A DNA stretch of 33,665 nucleotides from Acidobacteriota bacterium (GTDB lineage Bacteria; Acidobacteriota; Terriglobia; Terriglobales; Acidobacteriaceae): positions 1-33,665 of the forward strand of contig JAJYVR010000005.1 of NCBI GenBank assembly GCA_021791935.1. The letters run 5' to 3'. A model generated the notes under the pieces. The model was not told the DNA's origin, did no database searches, and saw only the letters and a program-made list of their open reading frames with translations. Positions 2,734-25,813 of this stretch are shown in pieces. The position numbers and the translations under genes were made by a program. How positions within the stretch are numbered: position 1 is the stretch's first letter; each line of letters begins with the position of its first letter.

Positions 2734-3165
2734 GTGGAAGCGAAGACCGGCTCGCATCAACGTCCAATTTTCGGGGTGATATTGCTGCTCTCACTCGCCC
2801 TGAATGCGTTCTTAATATGGAACGATCACTATGATGTTCCAGATGTGAATTTCTTCCCGCATGGATTGCGAGATGCGTATTTCATCAAGAGGCACGCAGG
2901 AGGAAAGTATTTTGTAATTGAGCACTCAGGGCACCGTTATTTGGTTAAATGCCAGGACACATTAACTTGGCTCGGCGGTATTTACACTTCAGGCCAACCC
3001 ATGGTCGATGGATGCACCTATATTCCATCTTTAGTCGGCAAAAGTATTGCTGGAGGTCTGATGCGCAATGAAGGCGATGCTCTGGTATACCAGCCGTGGG
3101 AGCAGGTGGACACCGAGCAAACAGCAGACATTCTCACGATTGTCAGTGACGAAAAAAGTAGGTAG
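2734..3165 (+). CDS. Unknown AT-rich membrane-anchored protein
   Basis: I do not recognise this 143-residue protein. It starts at GTG 2734 with GGAG at 2720-2723. Residues 12-29 form one hydrophobic segment, giving an uncleaved anchor or signal, and the rest is a soluble domain with two cysteines. Base composition differs from the flanking mre genes: 26 of 60 bases are G or C at 2821-2880, with many A/T-ending codons. It sits between mreB and mreC next to a GIY-YIG repeat unit, so I infer it was acquired by insertion. A role in cell shape is not supported by anything in the sequence. Confidence 0.7.
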   Translation: MEAKTGSHQRPIFGVILLLSLALNAFLIWNDHYDVPDVNFFPHGLRDAYFIKRHAGGKYFVIEHSGHRYLVKCQDTLTWLGGIYTSGQPMVDGCTYIPSLVGKSIAGGLMRNEGDALVYQPWEQVDTEQTADILTIVSDEKSR

Positions 3166-3214
3166 CTGTTTCCAAACAGGCGTTGTTTGAAGTGAATTAA
3201 GTATTGCAGAAATC

Positions 3215-3254
3215 TGTCATCCCGAGCGAAGCGCAGCGTAGTCGAGGGACCTGC
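3215..3254 (-). repeat. Dispersed palindromic repeat R2 (G/C subtype), left end of GIY-YIG unit
   Basis: Read on the minus strand it begins GCAGGTCCCTCG and ends GCTCGGGATGACA. Its 3215-3231 segment is a perfect 17-base inverse of 3598-3614, and 3240-3254 is a perfect 15-base inverse of 3557-3571. It therefore forms an inverted pair with R3 around the nuclease gene. It ends nine bases before the GTG start of that gene. Confidence 0.88.
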
Positions 3255-3262
3255 TTTTAACC

Positions 3263-3625
3263 GTGCGTGAACACACCTACTTCGTTTACATAATTGCCAG
3301 CCGATCGCGCACCATTTACATCGGGATCACCAGGGATTTGCGCCGTCGCGTTTGGGAACACCAGGCCGGTACCTTCCCAGGCTTTACACGAACCTATCGC
3401 TGTCATCGGCTGGTATGGTTCGAGACGTATTTCACTGTGACGCGAGCTATTGACCGCGAAAAGCAGCTCAAAAGATGGTCGCGCACCAAGAAGATCAACC
3501 TTATTGAACAGGAAAATCAGCTATGGGCGGATCTGAGCGAAGAATGGCCTCAAACAGCAGGTCCCTCGACTGCGTCCCGTCGCCGAAGCGACGCGGACTT
3601 CGCTCGGGATGACAAAAATATTTGA
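3263..3625 (+). CDS. GIY-YIG nuclease-domain protein, bounded by inverted repeats
   Basis: This is a single-domain GIY-YIG endonuclease of the small stand-alone type, 120 aa. The GIY-equivalent is VYI at residues 8-10 and the YIG is at 19-21, followed by RDLRRRVWEH with the expected arginine and by the conserved REKQLKRW helix with Glu66. It starts at GTG 3263 with no clear ribosome-binding site. Its last 20 or so codons (from TAGPST onward) are read through repeat R3, so the native C-terminus probably lies near residue 97. It is 64/95 identical, by my alignment, to the protein at 23366-23680. Six bases separate it from mreC. The family cuts DNA in homing, repair and restriction systems; here I infer a selfish or repeat-spreading role, without proof of activity. 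Confidence 0.88.
   Translation: MREHTYFVYIIASRSRTIYIGITRDLRRRVWEHQAGTFPGFTRTYRCHRLVWFETYFTVTRAIDREKQLKRWSRTKKINLIEQENQLWADLSEEWPQTAGPSTASRRRSDADFARDDKNI
3557..3614 (+). repeat. Dispersed palindromic repeat R3 (G/C subtype), right end of GIY-YIG unit
   Basis: It begins GCAGGTCCCTCG and ends GCTCGGGATGACA. The centre has a 6-bp stem (3578-3583 with 3588-3593) closed by a CGAA tetraloop. It encodes the tail of the nuclease gene and lies 17 bases before the mreC start. Confidence 0.88.
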
Positions 3626-5517: not shown

Positions 5518-7674
5518 ATGGCTGGCACATATAACAAAGACGAAAGAATTCCATCGATCAAGCTGACGGCGATCCAGTACGTCATCGCACTGATCCTGGC
5601 GATACTCGTCTCCGGCTTGTGGAGACTGCAGGTGCTGGGCGCGCAAAACTATCGCGCGCTTGCCGAGGCCAACCGCATTCGCAAAGTCCCTATCCTCGCG
5701 CCGCGCGGAAAGCTCTACGATCGCGACGGACGCCTGCTGGTCGACAATTATCCCTCTGTCACGTGCTTCCTGGTTCCGGAGCAGGCCCGCAATCTTGACG
5801 CCGATTTGCCCCTCATCGCCGATGGCCTGCATATGCAGACCGATCAGTTGCACGCCATACTTTTGCGCTATCGCCATCAGCCCAAATATCAGCCCATCCC
5901 GCTGCAACAGGACATTACGCCGGACGAGCAGGCTTTTATCGCGGCCCATGCCAATGAGCTGCCCGAACTGGAAACCATTGAGGAGCAGCGGCGGCTCTAT
6001 CCCAGCAATGGCTTCGCCGCTCACCTCATCGGTTACGTCGGCGAAGTTTCTGAAGACATGCTCGACGACCCACGCTATGCCTTCTATCAACCGGGCGACG
6101 TGGTCGGTCGGTCCGGCGTCGAGGAGTCCTACGACCCCATCCTGCGCGGTCAGGATGGCTCCCGCGATGTGATTGTCGACAGCCACGGCCGCGAGCTGGG
6201 CGCGCTTGGCATCGAACCCGCGAAGCCGGGAAAATCAATTAAACTCACCATCGATCTTGACGTGCAGAAAGCCGCGGAGGAAGCTTTGGGCGCTCGGCAA
6301 GGCGCCATCGTCGCCATCGATCCGCGCACCGGCGAAGTGCTGGCCATGGTCAGTCACCCCACCTTCGATCCCAATCGGTTTGCCATCCGCATTCATCGCG
6401 ACGAGTGGAACAAGCTCATCGCCGACCCCGACCATCCGCTGATGAACAAGGCCATCCAGGCCCAGCTCGCTCCCGGCTCGACGTTCAAAATCATCGAAGC
6501 CATTGCCGGCCTGCAGGAAGGCATCGCGCAGACACTCAAAGTAGACTGCCACGGCGGCGCCGTCTTTTACGGGCGATATTTCAAGTGCTGGATTTCAGCC
6601 CGCCATCAATCGCACGGAATTACCGAGATCGGCAAGGGAATTTATCAGTCGTGCGACGTTTTCTTCTACACGCTTGCGGAAAAAATGGGCATCGACACGA
6701 TCGCGAAATGGGCCCACATGTTTGGCCTGGGACAGAAGACCGGCATCGATCTGCCGAATGAAGCGGCCGGCATCATGCCCTCGCCGGAATGGAAGATGCG
6801 CAACTACCACCAGAAATGGTTTGCCGGTGAAACCATCTCGGTCGGCATCGGCCAGGGAGCCATCGCCGTCACTCCGATTCAACTCATCCGCGCCATTGCG
6901 GGGATCGGGTCCGGCGGAGTTCTTAAGCGCCCGCACGTCGTGTTCCCGAATGAGATTCCCGCCGACCTGAAGGACTACTACCAGGACCGGTTTCCTGGCT
7001 CTGGCGATCAAGTAGTCCCCATCGATCCTGCCAACTGGCAGATTGTGACCGACGCCATGGCCCAGGTCGTCAGTTTTGCGGGAACGGCCGGTTTTGCGCA
7101 TTTGGATGGCATCGACTTCGCCGGCAAGACCGGCAGCGCGCAAATTGTCAGCAATGCCTATAAAGCGTCCGTGGGCGGCGGCGCAAAGCTGAACGATACT
7201 GCCTGGTTTGTCGGCATGTCGCCACGGAGAAACCCCGAAATTGCCGTGGTCGTGATGTGGCAGAACGGCTCGGAGGGATATTTCAGCGCTCGCCTGGCGG
7301 CCCGCGTCATTGAAGCCTACGTCAATAAAGAGCGTCTCCGCGACCACAACCTGATGCAAGTCGCCGCCAAGACCAATCCCGATGCCGGCAAGCCGTCATC
7401 GACTGTTCCCGTGACCGTGAAAGGGAAATCCGCGCCTGGCGCCGCCAAGCCGAAATCCATCGGTCAGATGCAGCCTCCTCGTGTCGCGACTGCATCTCCG
7501 ACAGAAATGGCCGCGCTCTGGACCGCTAGCGTCGCCCATCCGGAGGATCCGGACGCGAAGCAACTTCCCGCGCGCATCGCCGCGGCCTTTTCCCTGACCA
7601 AGGGCACCACCCTGCAAGCCGGCACATTTCTCCTTCCGCCGCCTCCAACGCCCCGCAACGGAGGTCGCGAGTGA
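5518..7674 (+). CDS. mrdA: Penicillin-binding protein 2 (elongasome transpeptidase)
   Basis: This class B PBP cross-links peptidoglycan during side-wall growth. One N-terminal transmembrane helix lies at about residues 16-35. The pedestal domain contains ILAPRGKLYDRDGRLLVDN. The transpeptidase motifs are STFK at 321-324 (Ser321 is the acylated nucleophile), SCD at 378-380 (PBP2 proteins have SxD rather than SxN) and KTG at 537-539. The 718 residues exceed the usual 600-650 because of a Pro/Ala/Lys-rich tail after about residue 620. The ATG at 5518 has no strong nearby Shine-Dalgarno site. It lies 39 bases after mreD; rodA follows after a repeat-filled gap. Confidence 0.95.
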   Translation: MAGTYNKDERIPSIKLTAIQYVIALILAILVSGLWRLQVLGAQNYRALAEANRIRKVPILAPRGKLYDRDGRLLVDNYPSVTCFLVPEQARNLDADLPLIADGLHMQTDQLHAILLRYRHQPKYQPIPLQQDITPDEQAFIAAHANELPELETIEEQRRLYPSNGFAAHLIGYVGEVSEDMLDDPRYAFYQPGDVVGRSGVEESYDPILRGQDGSRDVIVDSHGRELGALGIEPAKPGKSIKLTIDLDVQKAAEEALGARQGAIVAIDPRTGEVLAMVSHPTFDPNRFAIRIHRDEWNKLIADPDHPLMNKAIQAQLAPGSTFKIIEAIAGLQEGIAQTLKVDCHGGAVFYGRYFKCWISARHQSHGITEIGKGIYQSCDVFFYTLAEKMGIDTIAKWAHMFGLGQKTGIDLPNEAAGIMPSPEWKMRNYHQKWFAGETISVGIGQGAIAVTPIQLIRAIAGIGSGGVLKRPHVVFPNEIPADLKDYYQDRFPGSGDQVVPIDPANWQIVTDAMAQVVSFAGTAGFAHLDGIDFAGKTGSAQIVSNAYKASVGGGAKLNDTAWFVGMSPRRNPEIAVVVMWQNGSEGYFSARLAARVIEAYVNKERLRDHNLMQVAAKTNPDAGKPSSTVPVTVKGKSAPGAAKPKSIGQMQPPRVATASPTEMAALWTASVAHPEDPDAKQLPARIAAAFSLTKGTTLQAGTFLLPPPPTPRNGGRE

Positions 7675-7706
7675 TTTTGCAAGGGTCCGGTTACGGCCCG
7701 AAAACC

Positions 7707-7764
7707 GCAGGTCCCTCCACTTCGGTCGTCCGCCACGGCGGATCGACCTTCGGTCGGGATGACA
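7707..7764 (+). repeat. Dispersed palindromic repeat R4 (C/G subtype)
   Basis: It begins GCAGGTCCCTCC and ends GGTCGGGATGACA. The centre contains TCCGCC opposed to GGCGGA. It is tail-to-tail with R5: 7703-7721 is a perfect 19-base inverse of 7814-7832 and 7751-7765 a perfect 15-base inverse of 7776-7790, with a 10-base loop between. Confidence 0.88.
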
Positions 7765-7776
7765 AACCTTATCGCT

Positions 7777-7828
7777 TGTCATCCCGACCGGAGTTCTCGC
7801 GAAGCGAGGATGCAGTGGAGGGACCTGC
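7777..7828 (-). repeat. Dispersed palindromic repeat R5 (C/G subtype)
   Basis: This is the inverted partner of R4 in the mrdA-rodA gap. Its own centre has CTCGC (7796-7800) opposed to GCGAG (7804-7808). The end matches the family consensus GCAGGTCCCTCC exactly when read on the minus strand. Confidence 0.88.
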
Positions 7829-7862
7829 GGTTGTTTCTGCTGTCGCCAAGAGGGGATCTTAG

Positions 7863-8957
7863 ATGCGCCGCTTTCTTTCCTATCGCGATTTCGACTGGAC
7901 CTTGATGGGCTTTGTTGTGGCGCTGTCGGTGATCAGCGTGCTTGAAATTTACAGCGCCACCCTGCACACCAAGTTCGTCGATTTCGACCAGAAGCAGATG
8001 CTCTGGCTGGCTGGCGGCTTTGTAAGCATGTTTGTCCTGTCGCTCATCGACTACCACATCCTGCTGGATATCGCGGTATGGGCCTATGGCATCTGTCTGG
8101 TGTCGCTGGTGGCGGTCCTGGCGGTAGGGACCAAAGTCCTGGGCGGCCGGCGCTGGATCAGTTTGCCCGGCGGCATTCATTTCCAGCCTTCGGAATGGGT
8201 CAAGCTGGTACTCATCGTCGTGCTGGCCCGCTTCTTCACCAATCTCAGCGGCCGCGACCTCACGTGGAAAGACATCTTCAAGGCCATCGCCATGGTCGTC
8301 GTCCCCATGCTCCTGGTGATGAAGCAGCCGGACCTTGGCACCGCTCTTACCTACGCGCCAGTCCTGCTGGTGGGCCTGTTTCTCGGCGGCATTCGCTTTC
8401 GCCAGGCCGCGATTCTGCTTCTGGCCGCTTCCCTGGCCCTTGTTCCCGCCTGGTACAAGGTGCTGAAACCGTATCAAAAGGCGCGGCTGACCAGTTTTCT
8501 CGCGCCGGACAACGATCCCCGCGGCAGCGGCTATCAAATCCGACAATCGTTGATTGCAGTCGGCTCCGGCGGCGTCTGGGGGCAGGGCGCGGAGAAGGGA
8601 AGCCAGACCCAGGGCGATTTTCTTCCCATTCCATATACGGATTTCATCTTTGCCGCCTTTTGCGAGGAACATGGATTGGCGGGGGCCGTCCTTGTCCTGC
8701 TGTTATACTTCTTGTTGTTGATGCGTTTGGTCCAAAACGCTCAAACCGCCGCTGACCTGCCCGGCACGTTGATCGTCATGGGGGTCGTGGCCGTCCTGAT
8801 TTTTCAGATCGCGGTCAATGTGGGCATGGTCATCGGCTTGATGCCGGTCACCGGCATTCCGTTGCCCTTAATGAGTTATGGCGGCTCATCGGTATTGTTT
8901 ACGTTCCTGGCCCTTGGCATCGTCATGAACGTCCGCATGAGCCGCTTTGTGAATTAG
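7863..8957 (+). CDS. rodA: Peptidoglycan glycosyltransferase RodA (SEDS family)
   Basis: RodA polymerises lipid II into glycan strands in complex with PBP2. The 364-residue protein has about ten hydrophobic segments. SEDS signatures are present: KQPDLGTALTYAPVL with the essential aspartate, GQGAEKGSQTQGDFLPIPYTDFIFAAFCEEHGL split around the large periplasmic loop, and PVTGIPLPLMSYGGSS near the C-terminus. Length is normal (about 370). It belongs to the mre/mrd operon but is separated from mrdA by the R4/R5 inverted pair, which could uncouple its expression from mrdA. Confidence 0.95.
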   Translation: MRRFLSYRDFDWTLMGFVVALSVISVLEIYSATLHTKFVDFDQKQMLWLAGGFVSMFVLSLIDYHILLDIAVWAYGICLVSLVAVLAVGTKVLGGRRWISLPGGIHFQPSEWVKLVLIVVLARFFTNLSGRDLTWKDIFKAIAMVVVPMLLVMKQPDLGTALTYAPVLLVGLFLGGIRFRQAAILLLAASLALVPAWYKVLKPYQKARLTSFLAPDNDPRGSGYQIRQSLIAVGSGGVWGQGAEKGSQTQGDFLPIPYTDFIFAAFCEEHGLAGAVLVLLLYFLLLMRLVQNAQTAADLPGTLIVMGVVAVLIFQIAVNVGMVIGLMPVTGIPLPLMSYGGSSVLFTFLALGIVMNVRMSRFVN

Positions 8958-9509: not shown

Positions 9510-12500
9510 ATGACAAAAGAAATTTATATCTCCAGCACCCCTCACGAAACCCGCCTCGCGGTTGTCGAAGACGACCAGCTCGCGGAAATCTATTATGAGC
9601 GCGAGAACGAGTACACCCTCGCCGGCTCCATTTACAAAGGCAAAGTCACCCGCGTCCTCCCCGGCATGCAGTCGGCCTTTGTCGATATCGGTTTGGAGCG
9701 CGATGCGTTCCTCTACGTCACCGACTTCGCCGAAGAACAGGAAGACGGCGAAGAATATGTTTCCCTCGCGCCCGGTTCTCGCGGCCGGGGGCGTTCGGCT
9801 GGCGGCCACCCCAATGGCGGTCGCGGCGCAGCCGATGCGGAACCGCAACCAGGCGGGGAAGACCCCGCATTTCGTTCTTCCGTCGAAAGAAAACCGGCAG
9901 GGAATCTGTCCGCCCGCGAAGCCTCCAGCGCGCCGGGCGACGAAGAGGGGCCGGGAGGACGGCGTTGGCGCGGTCGGCGCGGTCGGCGGCGCGGTCGCGG
10001 CGGACCAGGCGTCCACGAGCGTTCAGCTTCGCACCCTGCGACCGGATCCAGCGACCAGCGTACCGACGGCCCCGAAGCAACACAGTTTGCGACCGAGGCG
10101 GTCCCCGCCGAGGCCGATTTCGAAAGCCCGCATCAGGATTTCGCGACACCATCGGCCCCGCTCGCGCCGCAGCCGGAGCGTCCCCGGTCTTCGCATATCC
10201 GCCCCGAGCAAGCGCCTGTCGTTCTCCCTGGCGAATCGCTCTCCAAATATCGTCGCGGCGAGTCTCCCGCGCCTTCCGCGTCGGCGGCAACCCAGGAAAG
10301 ACAAACGCCAGTGCCGGCCCCCCAGCCGGCCTTCCAGCCTTCCAGCATGGTGGTAGGACCGCTGGCATGGGATGGCAGCGACGTGTTGCCGGGCGAATCC
10401 CTTTCCCGTCACATGCGCTCGGGGGAAGCGTCCTCGCCCAAGGCGGAAAGCTTCTCCTCGCTGGCAGCGGAGGTACGGCCGATTGTCGACGAGGCTCCTG
10501 CCCCCCAGCCTCCAGCCGAGACGCATCCCCCAGTCGATGAAACTCCCTTGCCCGTATTCGAGCGCGAGAGACCCGCACCGGCTTACACGGATCTGTCATC
10601 CCGATCGGAGTCCGCCACGGCGGACGAAGTGGAGGGCCCCGCGGTTTCCGAGAACTTTGAGCCCACCGAAGCGTCCGCGTCCTATCGCTTCGATCCCTCC
10701 ACGCCCAGCGCCTATCGGCAAAGCAGCGTCGCCGAACCGCCCGCGCCGGAATTTTCCAGCCACGAAACGGTTGCGGAGGCACAGCAAGAAGCCACGACCC
10801 ATCCTGGGCCGTTCCGCGGCGAGGTCGCTTCGATCGTCCAACCGGGGCATTCGCATCCAACCGTGGCAGGCGTTTCCTCCCAGACGGAAGCGATTGAATC
10901 CGTCCGCGCGCGCGGCGCGTCCGCTGGCACCGAAGACACCTCGACCGAGCAGGAAGAAAGCGCGCAAGAAGAGGACGCGACCTCCGATCGCGATGAGCAC
11001 GTCTTCGATCCCGGTCTCGGAAATCTGGAAGAGGAAATCATCGACGAAGATGAGCCGGAAGCCTATGCCGCGCAGAGTCCGCAGGATGAAGCCGAATACG
11101 ACGATCTGGTCGAAGAGACGCTCGATGTCCAGATGGACAGCGGCCTGCTCAGCGAGCTGGTGCGCGATCGGCACATTGAACAGCGCACCCGCTTCGACGA
11201 CGAAAACGCAGATGCATCGGCGGATGGCTTGGAAGTCGAGGAAGATCTCAGCGAAGACGAAGCCTTCACAGCCGAAATGGGCGAGATCGAGCTGGAAGAT
11301 GCTGCGGATTCCGCAGAGGACGAAGCGGAAGGGGACCAGCCCGCAAATGCGGATGCAACCCGCAGCCGTCCCAGCGGAGGCCGCAATGGACAGCGCGGAA
11401 ACCGCAGCCAGCAGCGTCGCGGCCAGCGTGGAGATGGCAGGATGCGTCGCGCCACCGCGCAAACCACCAACCTGCCCGCCATCACCGACCTGTTGAAGCC
11501 CAACCAGGAAATCCTGGTCCAGATCGCGAAGGAACCCATTGCGCGCAAAGGCGCGCGCATCACCAGCCACATCGCCTTGCCCGGTCGCTTCCTGGTCTTC
11601 ATGCCGACGGTGAATCATGTTGGCGTCTCCCGCAAAATTTCCTCCGATGAAGAACGTCAGCGGCTGAAGCACATTCTTCTCAGCGAAAAAGGGGCGGCCT
11701 CCGGCGGCTTTATCGTTCGCACCGCCGCTGCCACCGCCAGCGAGGAAGATCTTCGCGCCGACATTCGCTTCCTGCTGACCCTGTGGGCGGAGATTCGCCA
11801 GCGAGCGGAGAACGCCAAACCTCCGGCATTGATCTATCACGATCTCAGCCTGGTGGAACGCGTGCTGCGCGATCAGGTCACGGACAATTTCTCCTCCATC
11901 TGGGTCGACACCGAGGCGGACTACGAGCGGGTCCTGCGCTTTCTCGGCCGCTTTGAGCCCTCCCTGGTGCGGCGCGTCAAGCTCTACACCAAGGAAACGC
12001 CGCTGTTCGAGCAGTTCGGCATTCAGGAAGAAATCAACAATGCGCTGCGCTCCAAGGTGTGGCTCAAATCCGGCGGCTCCATCGTTATCAACCAGACCGA
12101 GGCGCTGGTGGCCATCGACATCAACACCGGAAAATACGTCGGCAAAACAGCGCGCCTGGAAGACACTATTCTCAAGACCAACCTCGACGCCATTCCAGAG
12201 ATTGTCCGCCAGATTCGTCTGCGCGATCTGGGCGGCATCATCGTCATCGACTTCATCGACATGGATGAACGCAGGAACCGCAATCGAGTGATGCTGGCGC
12301 TGGAAGACGCATTGAAGTCCGATCGCGCCCCATCGAAGGTCTTGCAGTTCAACGATTTCGGCCTGGTGGCGATCACGCGCAAACGCGTCAAGCAATCGCT
12401 GGAGCGCACTCTGTCCGTTCCTTGCTCCGTTTGCACCGGGACAGGCATGGTCAAAGGACCGCTGACGGTCTGCAATGAGATTTATGTCGAGTTGCGCAAG

Positions 12501-12674
12501 ATGTATCGTCAAATTGACCGCGGCGATATTCTCCTGCGTGTGAATCCAGAGGTCGTCAAGCAGTTGAAACAGTCAAATGGCCGCTGGCTCAGCGAGATGG
12601 AGGAAATGTCCGGCAAAACTGTCATTGTCAAAAGCGATGCCAGTCTGCATCCGGAGCAGTTCGATATTCAATAA
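9510..12674 (+). CDS. rng: Ribonuclease E/G with large insertion in the S1 domain
   Basis: This endoribonuclease of the RNase E/G family acts in mRNA decay and rRNA processing. Residues 1 to about 75 carry the first half of the S1 domain (GSIYKGKVTRVLPGMQSAFVD). The fold resumes at about residue 654 (LPAITDLLKPNQEILVQIAK), so about 575 residues are inserted. The DNase I-like catalytic part follows, with Asp870 (VAIDINTGKYVG) and Asp914 (IVIDFIDMDE) as metal ligands, and the zinc-link CSVC at 972-975. The insertion holds an Arg/Gly cluster at about 148-166, two VLPGESLS motifs (238 and 292), an acidic part at about 475-615 and a second Arg/Gly cluster at about 618-650. TGAGG precedes the ATG. 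The symbol rng rather than rne is a choice. Confidence 0.93.
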   Translation: MTKEIYISSTPHETRLAVVEDDQLAEIYYERENEYTLAGSIYKGKVTRVLPGMQSAFVDIGLERDAFLYVTDFAEEQEDGEEYVSLAPGSRGRGRSAGGHPNGGRGAADAEPQPGGEDPAFRSSVERKPAGNLSAREASSAPGDEEGPGGRRWRGRRGRRRGRGGPGVHERSASHPATGSSDQRTDGPEATQFATEAVPAEADFESPHQDFATPSAPLAPQPERPRSSHIRPEQAPVVLPGESLSKYRRGESPAPSASAATQERQTPVPAPQPAFQPSSMVVGPLAWDGSDVLPGESLSRHMRSGEASSPKAESFSSLAAEVRPIVDEAPAPQPPAETHPPVDETPLPVFERERPAPAYTDLSSRSESATADEVEGPAVSENFEPTEASASYRFDPSTPSAYRQSSVAEPPAPEFSSHETVAEAQQEATTHPGPFRGEVASIVQPGHSHPTVAGVSSQTEAIESVRARGASAGTEDTSTEQEESAQEEDATSDRDEHVFDPGLGNLEEEIIDEDEPEAYAAQSPQDEAEYDDLVEETLDVQMDSGLLSELVRDRHIEQRTRFDDENADASADGLEVEEDLSEDEAFTAEMGEIELEDAADSAEDEAEGDQPANADATRSRPSGGRNGQRGNRSQQRRGQRGDGRMRRATAQTTNLPAITDLLKPNQEILVQIAKEPIARKGARITSHIALPGRFLVFMPTVNHVGVSRKISSDEERQRLKHILLSEKGAASGGFIVRTAAATASEEDLRADIRFLLTLWAEIRQRAENAKPPALIYHDLSLVERVLRDQVTDNFSSIWVDTEADYERVLRFLGRFEPSLVRRVKLYTKETPLFEQFGIQEEINNALRSKVWLKSGGSIVINQTEALVAIDINTGKYVGKTARLEDTILKTNLDAIPEIVRQIRLRDLGGIIVIDFIDMDERRNRNRVMLALEDALKSDRAPSKVLQFNDFGLVAITRKRVKQSLERTLSVPCSVCTGTGMVKGPLTVCNEIYVELRKMYRQIDRGDILLRVNPEVVKQLKQSNGRWLSEMEEMSGKTVIVKSDASLHPEQFDIQ
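10594..10642 (-). repeat. Degenerate copy R6 of the dispersed repeat inside the RNase E/G gene
   Basis: On the plus strand it reads TGTCATCCCGATCGGAG, then TCCGCC opposed to GGCGGA, then GTGGAGGGCCCCGC. It differs from the consensus at a few bases (GAC to GAT, ACCT to CCCC). It is translated in frame as residues 362-378 of the disordered insertion, with no stop codon. Confidence 0.8.
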
Positions 12675-23211: not shown

Positions 23212-23327
23212 TGAACAAGGCGACCAACAATCCGCTCAAGGAGGCGTACTTCGAAGCTGGGACAACGCCACAACGACCGAATCTTGAATACTTGCGATTG
23301 TTTGAATGATGCGCAAATCAAAAAACG

Positions 23328-23386
23328 TGTCATCCCGAGCGAAGGAATCCCAGCGCACGCTGGGATTATGCAGTCGAGGGACCTGC
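23328..23386 (-). repeat. Dispersed palindromic repeat R7 (G/C subtype)
   Basis: Read on the minus strand it begins GCAGGTCCCTCG and ends GCTCGGGATGACA. The centre is a perfect 9-bp stem (23346-23354 with 23359-23367). It supplies the last codons (AGPSTA) and the stop of the GIY-YIG gene at 23366. Confidence 0.88.
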
Positions 23387-23680
23387 GTTTGGATACCATC
23401 CGTCGCTCAGATCAGTCCAAGTTGGATTTTGTTTCTCTATCAAAGTGATCTTCTTGCTTCGCGACCAGTTTTTGAGTTGTTTCTCGCGCGCGATGGCCAG
23501 AGGTACCGAAACATAGGATTCGAACCATACCAGGCGGTGACAACGATATTTCGAAGTGAAACCGGGATATGTGCCGGCTTTATGTTCCCAAACTCGTCGC
23601 TCCAGATTGTTCGTAATGCCGATATACAGCACATGAGTCCGGCTTGCGACAATGTAAGTGTAATAGTGATGTTCTCGCAT
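23366..23680 (-). CDS. GIY-YIG nuclease-domain protein, second copy
   Basis: This 104-residue single-domain GIY-YIG nuclease is 64/95 identical, by eye, to the one at 3263-3625. YTYIVAS and LYIGITNNLERRVWEHK hold the GIY/YIG pair and arginine, and REKQLKNW the conserved helix with glutamate. It starts at ATG 23680 and stops inside repeat R7. Divergence from copy 1 is spread evenly over the protein with the motifs kept, suggesting purifying selection since the copies split. It lies between the aldehyde dehydrogenase and HNH genes in an AT-richer island. Confidence 0.9.
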   Translation of the reverse strand: MREHHYYTYIVASRTHVLYIGITNNLERRVWEHKAGTYPGFTSKYRCHRLVWFESYVSVPLAIAREKQLKNWSRSKKITLIEKQNPTWTDLSDGWYPNAGPSTA

Positions 23681-23721
23681 CAGGCTCCAACTCGATCAGA
23701 CGGCTTTTCGATTATATGTTG

Positions 23722-23779
23722 GTCATCCCGAGCGAGGTAGTCACAGCCTGCGCTGCGACTGCGCAGTCGAGGGACCTGC
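23722..23779 (-). repeat. Dispersed palindromic repeat R8 (G/C subtype)
   Basis: It carries the family ends and a near-perfect 9-bp central stem (AGTCACAGC opposed to GCTGCGACT). It continues directly into the GIY-YIG remnant at 23780-23845 and is in the same orientation as R7. Confidence 0.87.
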
Positions 23780-23845
23780 GGTTGGATACCAATGTGTTCG
23801 GCTAGCTACAATGTAAACGTAAACGTAATAACGGTGTTCACGCAT
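23759..23845 (-). pseudogene. Internally deleted GIY-YIG gene remnant
   Basis: Read from ATG 23845 on the minus strand the frame gives MREHRYYVYVYIVASRTH, then WYPTAGPSTAQ. The first part matches the N-terminus of the intact copy (MREHHYYTYIVASRTH) with a duplicated Val-Tyr, and the second matches its C-terminus (WYPNAGPSTA). About 75 codons, including YIG and the catalytic helix, are missing with no frame change. The start codon overlaps the ATG of the HNH gene on the other strand. Confidence 0.82.
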
Positions 23846-24554
23846 GAATGATCAGATCAATCAAATCAGGCAGCTTCTTGATCAATTAGAAGCTGGTTCA
23901 GAGGTAAAGGCCAGTTCCAAGAGCCTAGCCGAATTTTCTGCTTTAGAGCTCCCGCAAATCATTCAAGAAGTTGTAGATGATCTTCAGCCACTTTTAACAC
24001 CCTACGAAGCCGCGTTTTACTGGTATCTCTTTCGACATTCAATTGCGGGGAACGGGAGCGCATATCTGCGAACTGGCCACAGGCGTCTGTGCAAAGGCGT
24101 TGCAAAATCCTCTCGCTCAGGCCGGGCAGAGAACCCTGTTGCGCCGAGCAAGGTTCAGGAAATCCTGCGTGAATTGGAGTCAATTGGCGCAATTCGCAAA
24201 GAAGGTGAACCCAATCGTGAAGGCACACTCTATCGGGTTCTTGTTCCTGACGAAATCGAAGCTTGCAGGAAATATCGTGCAGAGCGCCTTACAGAAAACC
24301 TACCGCCTGAAGCCCTTGAGGCTGAAATTGATCACTACAACGTGCGCGAAAATCGCGTGAAAATCTTTGAGCGGGACCAGTACAAATGCTTCTATTGTGA
24401 GAAGCAGCTTACTCGCTTTACCGCGACACTTGATCACATCACGCCCGTCGCGGAGGGTGGTGGCAACGATATAGGCAATTTAATTACTGCCTGTTTGCAC
24501 TGCAATTCCCGGAAACAGAAACGTCCTTTGGACGATTTCCTTGCTGAAAGCTGA
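23844..24554 (+). CDS. Winged-helix/HNH endonuclease protein
   Basis: The C-terminal 65 residues are an HNH nuclease: YKCFYCEKQL, LDHITPVAEGGGNDIGNLITAC and CNSRKQKRPLDDF show the zinc-binding CxxC pairs and the catalytic DH. Residues about 50-140 (LTPYEAAFYWYLFRHS, SKVQEILRELESIGAIRK, GTLYRVLVPDEI) look like a winged-helix DNA-binding domain of the replication-initiator type. The gene is AT-rich (24 of 60 bases G/C at 23941-24000), unlike the host genes. ATG 23844 overlaps the GIY-YIG remnant. A defence, homing or mobile-element role is inferred from the domains and location. Confidence 0.82.
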   Translation: MNDQINQIRQLLDQLEAGSEVKASSKSLAEFSALELPQIIQEVVDDLQPLLTPYEAAFYWYLFRHSIAGNGSAYLRTGHRRLCKGVAKSSRSGRAENPVAPSKVQEILRELESIGAIRKEGEPNREGTLYRVLVPDEIEACRKYRAERLTENLPPEALEAEIDHYNVRENRVKIFERDQYKCFYCEKQLTRFTATLDHITPVAEGGGNDIGNLITACLHCNSRKQKRPLDDFLAES

Positions 24555-24590
24555 TCGATCAGCGTGATGGAATCCCATAATGGCGGAAAC

Positions 24591-24639
24591 GCAGGTCCCT
24601 CCGCTGCGGTCGCCGCGGCGACCTCCGGTCGGGATGACA
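24591..24639 (+). repeat. Dispersed palindromic repeat R9 (C/G subtype)
   Basis: Family ends are intact. The centre 24608-24623 is a perfect 16-base palindrome. It lies between the HNH gene and ald, about 60 bases before the ald start. Confidence 0.87.
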
Positions 24640-24697
24640 ACTTCCAAGAGTGTATTGCGATTTTGTTGATCAGGCCAGGATCTAGGAGAGTGCAAAT

Positions 24698-25813
24698 ATG
24701 ATTATCGGCGTTCCCAAAGAAGTAAAAGACCACGAAAGCCGCGTCGGCGTCACCCCTGCCGGCGTCAAGGCCCTCGTCGAAGCGGGCCACACGGTCCTGG
24801 TCGAAACCAATGCGGGGGCCCTCTCCTCGCTCCCCGATGATGAATATCAATCGGCAGGCGCGGAAATCGCCGGCTCGGCCTACGATGTCTGGCGTCTCTC
24901 CGACATGATCGTCAAGGTCAAGGAGCCGGTCGAGAAAGAGTACGGTCATTTCCGCGAGGGACTGGTCCTGTTCACCTATCTGCACCTCGCGCCTCTTCCC
25001 GCGCTGACCGCCAAGCTGCTGGAGAAAAAAGTCATCGGCATCGCCTATGAAACGATTCGCGACAAAGCCGGCACGCTGCCGCTACTGACGCCGATGTCGG
25101 AAGTGGCGGGACGAATGTCGGTGCAGGTCGGCGCTGCCCACCTGGAAAAAGAAAAAGGCGGTCGCGGCGTTCTTCTCGGCGGTATTCCCGGCGTGCCGCC
25201 TGGAAATGTCTGCATCATCGGCGGCGGCATCGTCGGCACCAACGCCGCCAAAGTTGCGCTCGGCATGGGCGCGAAGGTCACCATCATCGACATGAACCTG
25301 AACCGTCTGCGCGAACTGGACGACATCTTCAATGGCCGCGTCTACACCCTCGCCTCCAACTCCTACAACGTCGGCCGTGCCGTGCGCGAAGCGGACCTGC
25401 TTATCGGCGGCGTATTGATCCCCGGCGCCGCCGCTCCTAAAATCGTCACTCGCGCGATGGTCTCCGCCATGAAAAAAGGCGCGGTGATTGTGGATGTTGC
25501 CATCGATCAAGGCGGCTGCATTGAGACCGCCCGTCCCACCACCCACAGCGATCCCTCCTACGTGCTGGATGGCGTGGTGCATTATTGCGTGACCAACATG
25601 CCGGCAGCGGTGCCGCATACTTCGACCCTCGGCCTCACCAACGCGACCTTTCCGTATGTGCTGCGGCTGGCCACGCTCGGCCCGAAGGCGGCCATTCAAG
25701 CCGATGCCGGACTGCAGGATGGCGTCAACACCTACAACGGCAGTCTGACCTGCAAGCCCGTCGCGGAATCCCAGGGTATGCCCTGGAAATCCGTGACCGA
25801 ACTGGTGCATTGA
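24698..25813 (+). CDS. ald: Alanine dehydrogenase
   Basis: It catalyses the reversible NAD-linked deamination of L-alanine to pyruvate. At 371 aa it has exactly the usual length. Lys75 (VKVKEP) and His96 (LHLA) are the pyruvate-binding and catalytic residues, [20 protein letters not shown] is the typical N-terminus, and [26 protein letters not shown] is the Rossmann NAD site. GGAG lies near 24685. It follows the repeat R9 and has no obvious operon partner; it is a host gene by codon use. Confidence 0.96.

Follow-up and report, generated by a model that had tools for sequence, protein, structure and literature searches.

In E. coli, inverted REP units are combined into composites, the BIMEs, which are transcribed within operons. 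Among the other described hairpin repeats, the CGTC/TGTC/CCTC REP superfamily includes dRS3 of Neisseria and RPE-4 and RPE-6 of Rickettsia (Di Nocera, De Gregorio and Rocco 2013, PMC3733652). That study of 2013 found CGTC-type palindromes in five phyla, remarked that they "apparently lack a dedicated transposase" and named no associated enzyme (PMC3733652). The Slx1-like/UPF0213 proteins are, within the accessible part of the survey by Dunin-Horkawicz (2006, PMC1564403), read as a mostly vertical family, and that part draws no link between them and repeats. Our search of open-access PMC returned no paper linking GIY-YIG proteins with REP, RAYT, dRS3 or CGTC repeats, and RepRanger (2025, PMC12306157) mentions neither GIY nor nuclease. 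Here we describe a palindrome between mrdA and rodA in an Acidobacteriota genome, using "the window" for the whole 33.7-kb stretch of DNA that was analysed. The palindrome, R4/R5, is probably a selfish, non-autonomous repeat dimer whose autonomous form consists of inverted repeats, tags outermost, flanking a GIY-YIG gene, with mobility that would be driven by the nuclease.

Results

Two repeat units form the mrdA-rodA palindrome

The palindrome and its neighbours are laid out as follows.

5518-7674, + strand: mrdA (PBP2), 5' of the R4/R5 dimer; Pfam Transpeptidase 8e-64, PBP_dimer 2e-40
7703-7765, - strand: R4, REP-like unit; TGTC tag 7764-7761; internal hairpin GGTCG.TCCGCC/GGCGGA.CGACC; tail CTGCGGTT
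7766-7775, no strand: spacer/loop between the two tags; 10 nt, ACCTTATCGC
7776-7832, + strand: R5, REP-like unit; TGTC tag 7777-7780; internal hairpin TCTCGC/GCGAGGA, unlike that of R4; ends the same as those of R4
7863-8957, + strand: rodA, 3' of the R4/R5 dimer; Pfam FTSW_RODA_SPOVE 5e-94

A first-pass annotation of this DNA had described a giant inverted repeat whose outer arms match perfectly over 19 bp and whose inner arms do so over 15 bp, around a 10-nt loop, each half having its own side hairpin. The description holds throughout. The outer arms (7703-7721 and 7814-7832) are 19 nt long and 100% complementary, while the inner arms (7745-7765 and 7776-7796) are 21 nt long and 90% complementary, their innermost 15 bp (7751-7765 and 7776-7790) being perfect. 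The setting between the PBP2 and RodA genes was also read correctly, the Pfam matches agreeing on both. Folded as RNA, 7675-7862 reaches -114.6 kcal/mol against a shuffle mean of -68.8 (sd 4.1; z = -11.1), with 0 of 200 dinucleotide shuffles equally stable; the 130-nt core as RNA has a folding energy of -96.5, and as DNA the palindrome 7703-7832 gives -55.1, where mononucleotide shuffles average -21.5. Rfam has no match anywhere in the window.

The first-pass annotation missed that R4 and R5 are two copies of one dispersed repeat. They are set tag-to-tag with their tags inside, a TT dimer in the terms of Di Nocera et al. (2013). The ends of the repeat are constant (TGTCATCCCGASCG ... TSGAGGGACCTGC-like) and its middle palindrome varies from unit to unit, so R4 and R5 are two different units rather than one sequence copied in reverse. 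By the coordinates of the strict head pattern they make up the sole close tags-inside pair in their own genome.

A dispersed repeat with a paired stem

The window holds nine repeat units, and the 3.17-Mb draft genome holds 95 GTCATYYYGASCG heads against 2 for the reversed control pattern, both counted with a strict head pattern. Three units of the window stand apart from the loci treated elsewhere in the text, all from the repeat search.

1362-1417, - strand: solitary REP-like unit, 3' of an ORF ending at 1357
10593-10650, + strand: REP-like unit in frame within an RNase E/G gene (9510-12674)
24589-24640, - strand: solitary REP-like unit, ahead of an ORF at 24698

The unit within the RNase E/G gene adds about 20 codons to a variable region, and among seven relatives compared its peptide is common only to the closest (L068). 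Tandem units outnumber inverted dimers in the genome, and same-orientation runs with a spacing of about 70-145 bp were seen on contigs C214, C309, C115, C97 and C52.

Each unit is laid out as a TGTC tag, a stem of the form AT-YYY-GA-S ... S'-GA-RRR-A with a tandem GA/GA mismatch, a variable inner hairpin and a short tail. TGTC terminates most of the window units and GGTC one of them. The outer stem, broken by the tandem GA/GA and lengthened by the variable inner hairpin, is not the uninterrupted stem of 8-9 bp with a loop of 4-5 nt that marks the CGTC superfamily. Of the first two stem positions, which are complementary A/T in that superfamily, position 2 pairs (T with A), and the first A faces T in ...GGGAT units and C in the ...GGGAC units of the window. 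The tail of the window units is CTGC rather than CCA, the latter occurring in another subtype of the same genome (L060). The GTAG tag of RAYT-type REPs is not present in these repeats.

Pairing was scored in 126 units beside GIY-YIG genes, a sample in which shared ancestry adds to the counts. The reverse complement of a unit's own TYYY, preceded by GA, lies on the 3' side in 90% of units; permuting the YYY types lowers this share to 38% (maximum 49%). The bases flanking the GA/GA mismatch (S/S') are G-C in 71 cases, C-G in 21 and other in 1, and the stem types CCC, CCT, TCT and TCC turn up repeatedly across genomes. Judged by this pattern of pairing, the repeat is under selection as a folded strand.

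The mrdA-rodA gap in relatives

An extremely stable RNA fold placed between two co-directional partner genes brings to mind a stabiliser, processing site or attenuator of the mRNA, retained by selection to keep PBP2 and RodA in balance, for which BIMEs supply a precedent. Comparison of 65 loci with both mrdA and rodA, window included, speaks against such a role. The gap is below 30 bp in 38 of the 65, with a median of 12 bp where the repeat motif is absent, and four close relatives (L064, L065, L067, L069) have gaps of only 3-19 bp. The motif is found in the gap of 8 of the 65 loci, and L083 carries a tags-inside pair resembling R4/R5. The gaps of L063, L066 and L071 contain repeat-like units of other sequence subtypes. 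In L084 (Paracidobacterium acidisoli), L088 and L112 a small GIY-YIG gene occupies the gap, bracketed by repeats in L084 and L088 and with a unit found on one side only in L112. The other insertions in the gaps of a few relatives are apparently independent. Going by these gap sequences, the palindrome is not a fixed or conserved part of the mrdA-rodA operon.

A role in the mRNA is also difficult to square with the other copies, about 95 in number and in unrelated places, and no terminator-like site or T-run was found at R4/R5. We therefore regard this explanation as highly improbable, and the stabiliser or attenuator proposed in the first-pass annotation finds no backing in the relatives. Its comparison with BIMEs survives in form, R4/R5 being an inverted REP-like composite that would be co-transcribed with the operon, and is dropped as to regulation. 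An incidental effect of the dimer on mrdA-rodA mRNA is possible.

GIY-YIG genes beside repeat units

Two places in the window combine repeat units with small nuclease genes. Units are from the repeat search.

3214-3253, + strand: REP-like unit bounding GIY-YIG element 1 upstream, tag outward
3263-3625, + strand: small Slx1-like GIY-YIG nuclease gene 1 (P0001); PF01541 2.6e-15
3558-3615, - strand: REP-like unit bounding GIY-YIG element 1 downstream, tag outward
23327-23388, + strand: REP-like unit, 3' side of GIY-YIG gene 2, tag outward
23366-23680, - strand: small GIY-YIG nuclease gene 2; 66% identity to gene 1, C-terminus running into the REP unit
23720-23781, + strand: REP-like unit, 5' side of GIY-YIG gene 2; parallel to the unit 23327-23388 rather than inverted
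23792-23845, - strand: truncated GIY-YIG gene remnant (MREHRYYVYVYIVASRTH...), adjoining the REP unit 23720-23781

Gene 1 sits between mreB and mreC, enclosed by inverted units with their tags outward, and the mreB-mreC gap is 969 bp with the gene as against a median of 132 bp in 27 gene-free relatives. The C-terminal tail of P0001 is coded by the downstream unit and predicted to be disordered. A third intact GIY-YIG gene lies on contig 252 of the same genome, flanked by repeats of the GTCATTCTGA...GAATCCA subtype.

Several further details were seen. Between mreB and element 1 there is a 143-aa ORF (2734-3165) that matches nothing in Pfam and has no counterpart in the rodA-region loci of the tested relatives; it may have arrived together with the insertion. 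The remnant at 23792-23845 is a gene start that stops beside the repeat, as if the rest had been deleted, and the ORF at 23844-24554, between repeat units, shows by eye an HNH-nuclease-like pattern (CFYCEKQL...LDHITPVAEGG...CLHCN). In locus L164, from position 1501, the GIY-YIG frame crosses the downstream repeat (VLRFAQDDK) into enoyl-CoA hydratase-like sequence for more than 300 aa, and several further copies have reading frames of 300-400 aa.

Association across the Acidobacteriaceae

The GIY-YIG gene was found in 71 of 120 genomes of the family, in one to eight copies each, some of them broken. Bracketing was assessed on 71 genes with enough flank, counting outward-tagged units within 400 bp. 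Such a unit lies upstream of 59, downstream of 57 and on both sides of 54 of the 71 genes, counts that are slightly inflated because one locus was retrieved twice (L084 and L189 are identical; L088 and L152 also reach that place) and a few loci share ancestry. Units of the opposite orientation are three to four times rarer around the genes, and beyond 400-500 bp the density drops to background, about 0-2 per 100-bp bin over about 70 loci. In a test that makes no use of the motif, 64 of 72 genes had flanks whose inverted match exceeded the 99.5th percentile of the shuffled sequences, and several apparent exceptions bear variants such as GTCATCACGA or GTCATCCAGA. The two units of a gene also match each other: own partners have a mean score of 28.3 against 15.5 for permuted ones, and none of 10,000 permutations reached 28.3. 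The gene and the repeats are thus physically associated, with terminal inverted repeats around the gene as in TIR transposons and MITEs.

Other genes behave differently. Neither of the two larger GIY-YIG genes of the same genome has repeats nearby, and eight distant UPF0213-like homologues are without this repeat type (one has a microsatellite, one a marginal score). In the wider phylum the flank test was passed by only 11 of 16 close homologues, which, like the same-orientation units around gene 2 of the window, counts against the nuclease as mover. It should also be considered that the repeats could be moved by a RAYT (Y1/HUH) transposase, as is thought for GTAG-type REPs, and Y1_Tnp genes do occur in the genome under study and in 52 of 60 genomes of the family. 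However, none of the 28 Y1_Tnp/RAYT genes tested is bracketed by these repeats, which lack the GTAG tag, and Di Nocera et al. likewise saw no CGTC-flanked RAYT (PMC3733652). We consider a RAYT as the mover very unlikely.

Repeat number follows the gene. Median head counts are 70 in gene-bearing genomes and 19 in gene-free ones (Mann-Whitney p 2e-8), and the number of repeats increases with GIY-YIG gene copies (Spearman 0.54, n=120); these are raw values, with kinship and genome quality not factored in. A few repeat-rich genomes (133-207 heads), namely G079 (207), G032 (158) and G115, have no GIY-YIG gene at E<=1e-8; there the enzyme may have been lost, missed in the drafts, or not be the sole mover.

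Other phyla and empty sites

A protein search of a plasmid collection, which includes several chromosome-sized records, retrieved GIY-YIG homologues in Alpha-, Beta- and Gammaproteobacteria, Cyanobacteriota and Bacteroidota. Inverted repeats flank the gene in 11 of 12 sampled genera, Cupriavidus having none. The repeats around the gene are CGTCATCCCCGCGAAGGCGGGGATCCAG in Azospirillum, CGTCATTCCCGC... in Neisseria gonorrhoeae and Aeromonas, and CGTCGCCCCGTGCTTGACACGGGGC in Novosphingobium; Sinorhizobium and, it appears, Methylobacterium have CCTC-type repeats, and Planktothrix and Spirosoma have TGTC types. In Azospirillum lipoferum the element separates sufB from sufC and is missing in three relatives whose flanks are about 95% identical. 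Empty sites in Azospirillum, Sphingobium and Shinella confirm insertion or make it likely, with junction flanks too divergent for exact ends or target duplications to be read. No recent near-identical duplicate pairs within one genome occur among the fetched loci.

Two arrangements differ from the usual one. At about 1180-1230 of L235 (Sphingobium TomTYG74) a single hairpin with tags at both ends stands where a sister strain has the GIY-YIG element; this solo hairpin may be the scar of a gene loss or a precursor. In L219 (Azospirillum lipoferum) and L198 the gene is flanked on either side by a repeat dimer rather than a single unit.

The main rival to a repeat-moving nuclease is that the gene is a homing-like passenger, which settles in existing repeat dimers and does not move them. 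GIY-YIG enzymes are classic homing nucleases, and some repeat-rich genomes are without the gene. Gene-free dimers with tags outside are, by published description, the most frequent arrangement of CGTC repeats (PMC3733652) and would offer homing an empty landing pad. Against this, repeat number increases with gene copies, and at suf, mreB-mreC and mrdA-rodA the element is present or absent as a whole, gene-free relatives being mostly without a dimer (Sphingobium L235 has a solo hairpin at another such site). The fold of the enzyme, moreover, is Slx1/UPF0213-like and not of the I-TevI/UvrC lineage that yielded homing enzymes. Homing is, on balance, unlikely, though it deserves more weight than a RAYT or an mRNA role.

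Discussion

A candidate enzyme and a possible mechanism

The protein is a minimal GIY-YIG domain of about 100 residues and of Slx1/UPF0213 type. Eight positions (Y19, G21, R29, H33, E66, N85, W88, D90) are near-invariant in 69 copies, and the catalytic Y, R, H and E of GIY-YIG enzymes are all present. Sequence and Foldseek searches place UPF0213 (1zg2) and Slx1 nearest, the fold search giving E <0.001 for 1zg2 only, with a predicted P0001 model of medium confidence (pLDDT 77) and a disordered, repeat-encoded tail. No NCBIfam model matches the nuclease at its cut-off. Eukaryotic Slx1 cuts branched DNA, an activity that fits a hairpin or cruciform repeat as the substrate.

From these observations we infer that the nuclease moves the repeats. 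It would recognise the repeat once this has extruded into a hairpin or cruciform, as might happen on the lagging strand, and would cleave near the tag or the base of the stem. The released or copied unit, or a pair of units with the gene that they enclose, would then be joined into a new, mostly intergenic site. GIY-YIG nucleases cut DNA and we know of none that joins it, so completion would have to fall to the host, whose repair or replication would finish the insertion. Single units, tandems and dimers like R4/R5 would be the gene-free copies, and a tags-inside dimer might most simply arise from two adjacent insertions.

The GIY-YIG nuclease is accordingly a good candidate for the enzyme that spreads CGTC-type repeats. 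A broader reading, to which we give an even chance, is that these elements form a widespread, hitherto undescribed class of bacterial mobile DNA. The sole protein of this class would be a minimal GIY-YIG nuclease, Slx1-like, with folded hairpins at the element's ends as its substrate, and the class would be the source of CGTC-type repeats, including dRS3 of Neisseria and possibly the Rickettsia palindromic elements. With matched repeats on both sides of a small nuclease gene in several phyla, the spread of CGTC palindromes becomes directly testable. If the proposal is true, one more nuclease class would be added to the few enzymes that underlie hairpin repeats in bacteria. There is also a practical point: where a palindrome is seen in an operon, relatives should be checked before it is called a regulator.

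Comparison with known systems

R4/R5 resembles the BIMEs of E. coli as an inverted REP composite, and differs from them in its sequence and tag; nothing ties it to the REP family of E. coli or to the RAYT of that family. The RAYT/TnpAREP REPtrons and REPINs (PMC3116915, PMC2817692, PMC8266576) share with our elements a small DNA-processing gene between hairpin repeats and gene-free dispersed copies. Here, however, the gene encodes a GIY-YIG protein and not an HUH tyrosine transposase, and the tag is TGTC/CGTC and not GTAG. RAYTs, furthermore, are housekeeping-like (PMC8266576), whereas the GIY-YIG gene has several copies per genome and a patchy distribution.

With the Slx1-like/UPF0213 proteins (1zg2, 1ywl; PMC1564403) the nuclease has in common a stand-alone minimal GIY-YIG domain, by sequence and by predicted fold. 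That family is mostly vertical according to the accessible part of the survey, while the repeat-bracketed clade is multi-copy and patchy. The Rickettsia palindromic elements offer a likeness of habit, namely the in-frame insertion seen here in the RNase E/G gene.

The closest likeness of the repeats is to the CGTC superfamily, with which they share an unpaired TGTC end tag, an imperfect palindrome, many dispersed copies, dimers and some intragenic placements. In the window units, by contrast, the outer stem is short and carries the tandem GA/GA, the inner hairpin is long and variable, and the tail is CTGC in place of CCA; because stem and tail differ, we call them CGTC-REP-like and not formal members of the superfamily. 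Repeats of the same type nevertheless flank GIY-YIG genes in A. lipoferum, N. aromaticivorans, S. meliloti and Neisseria, all of them among the CGTC taxa of PMC3733652.
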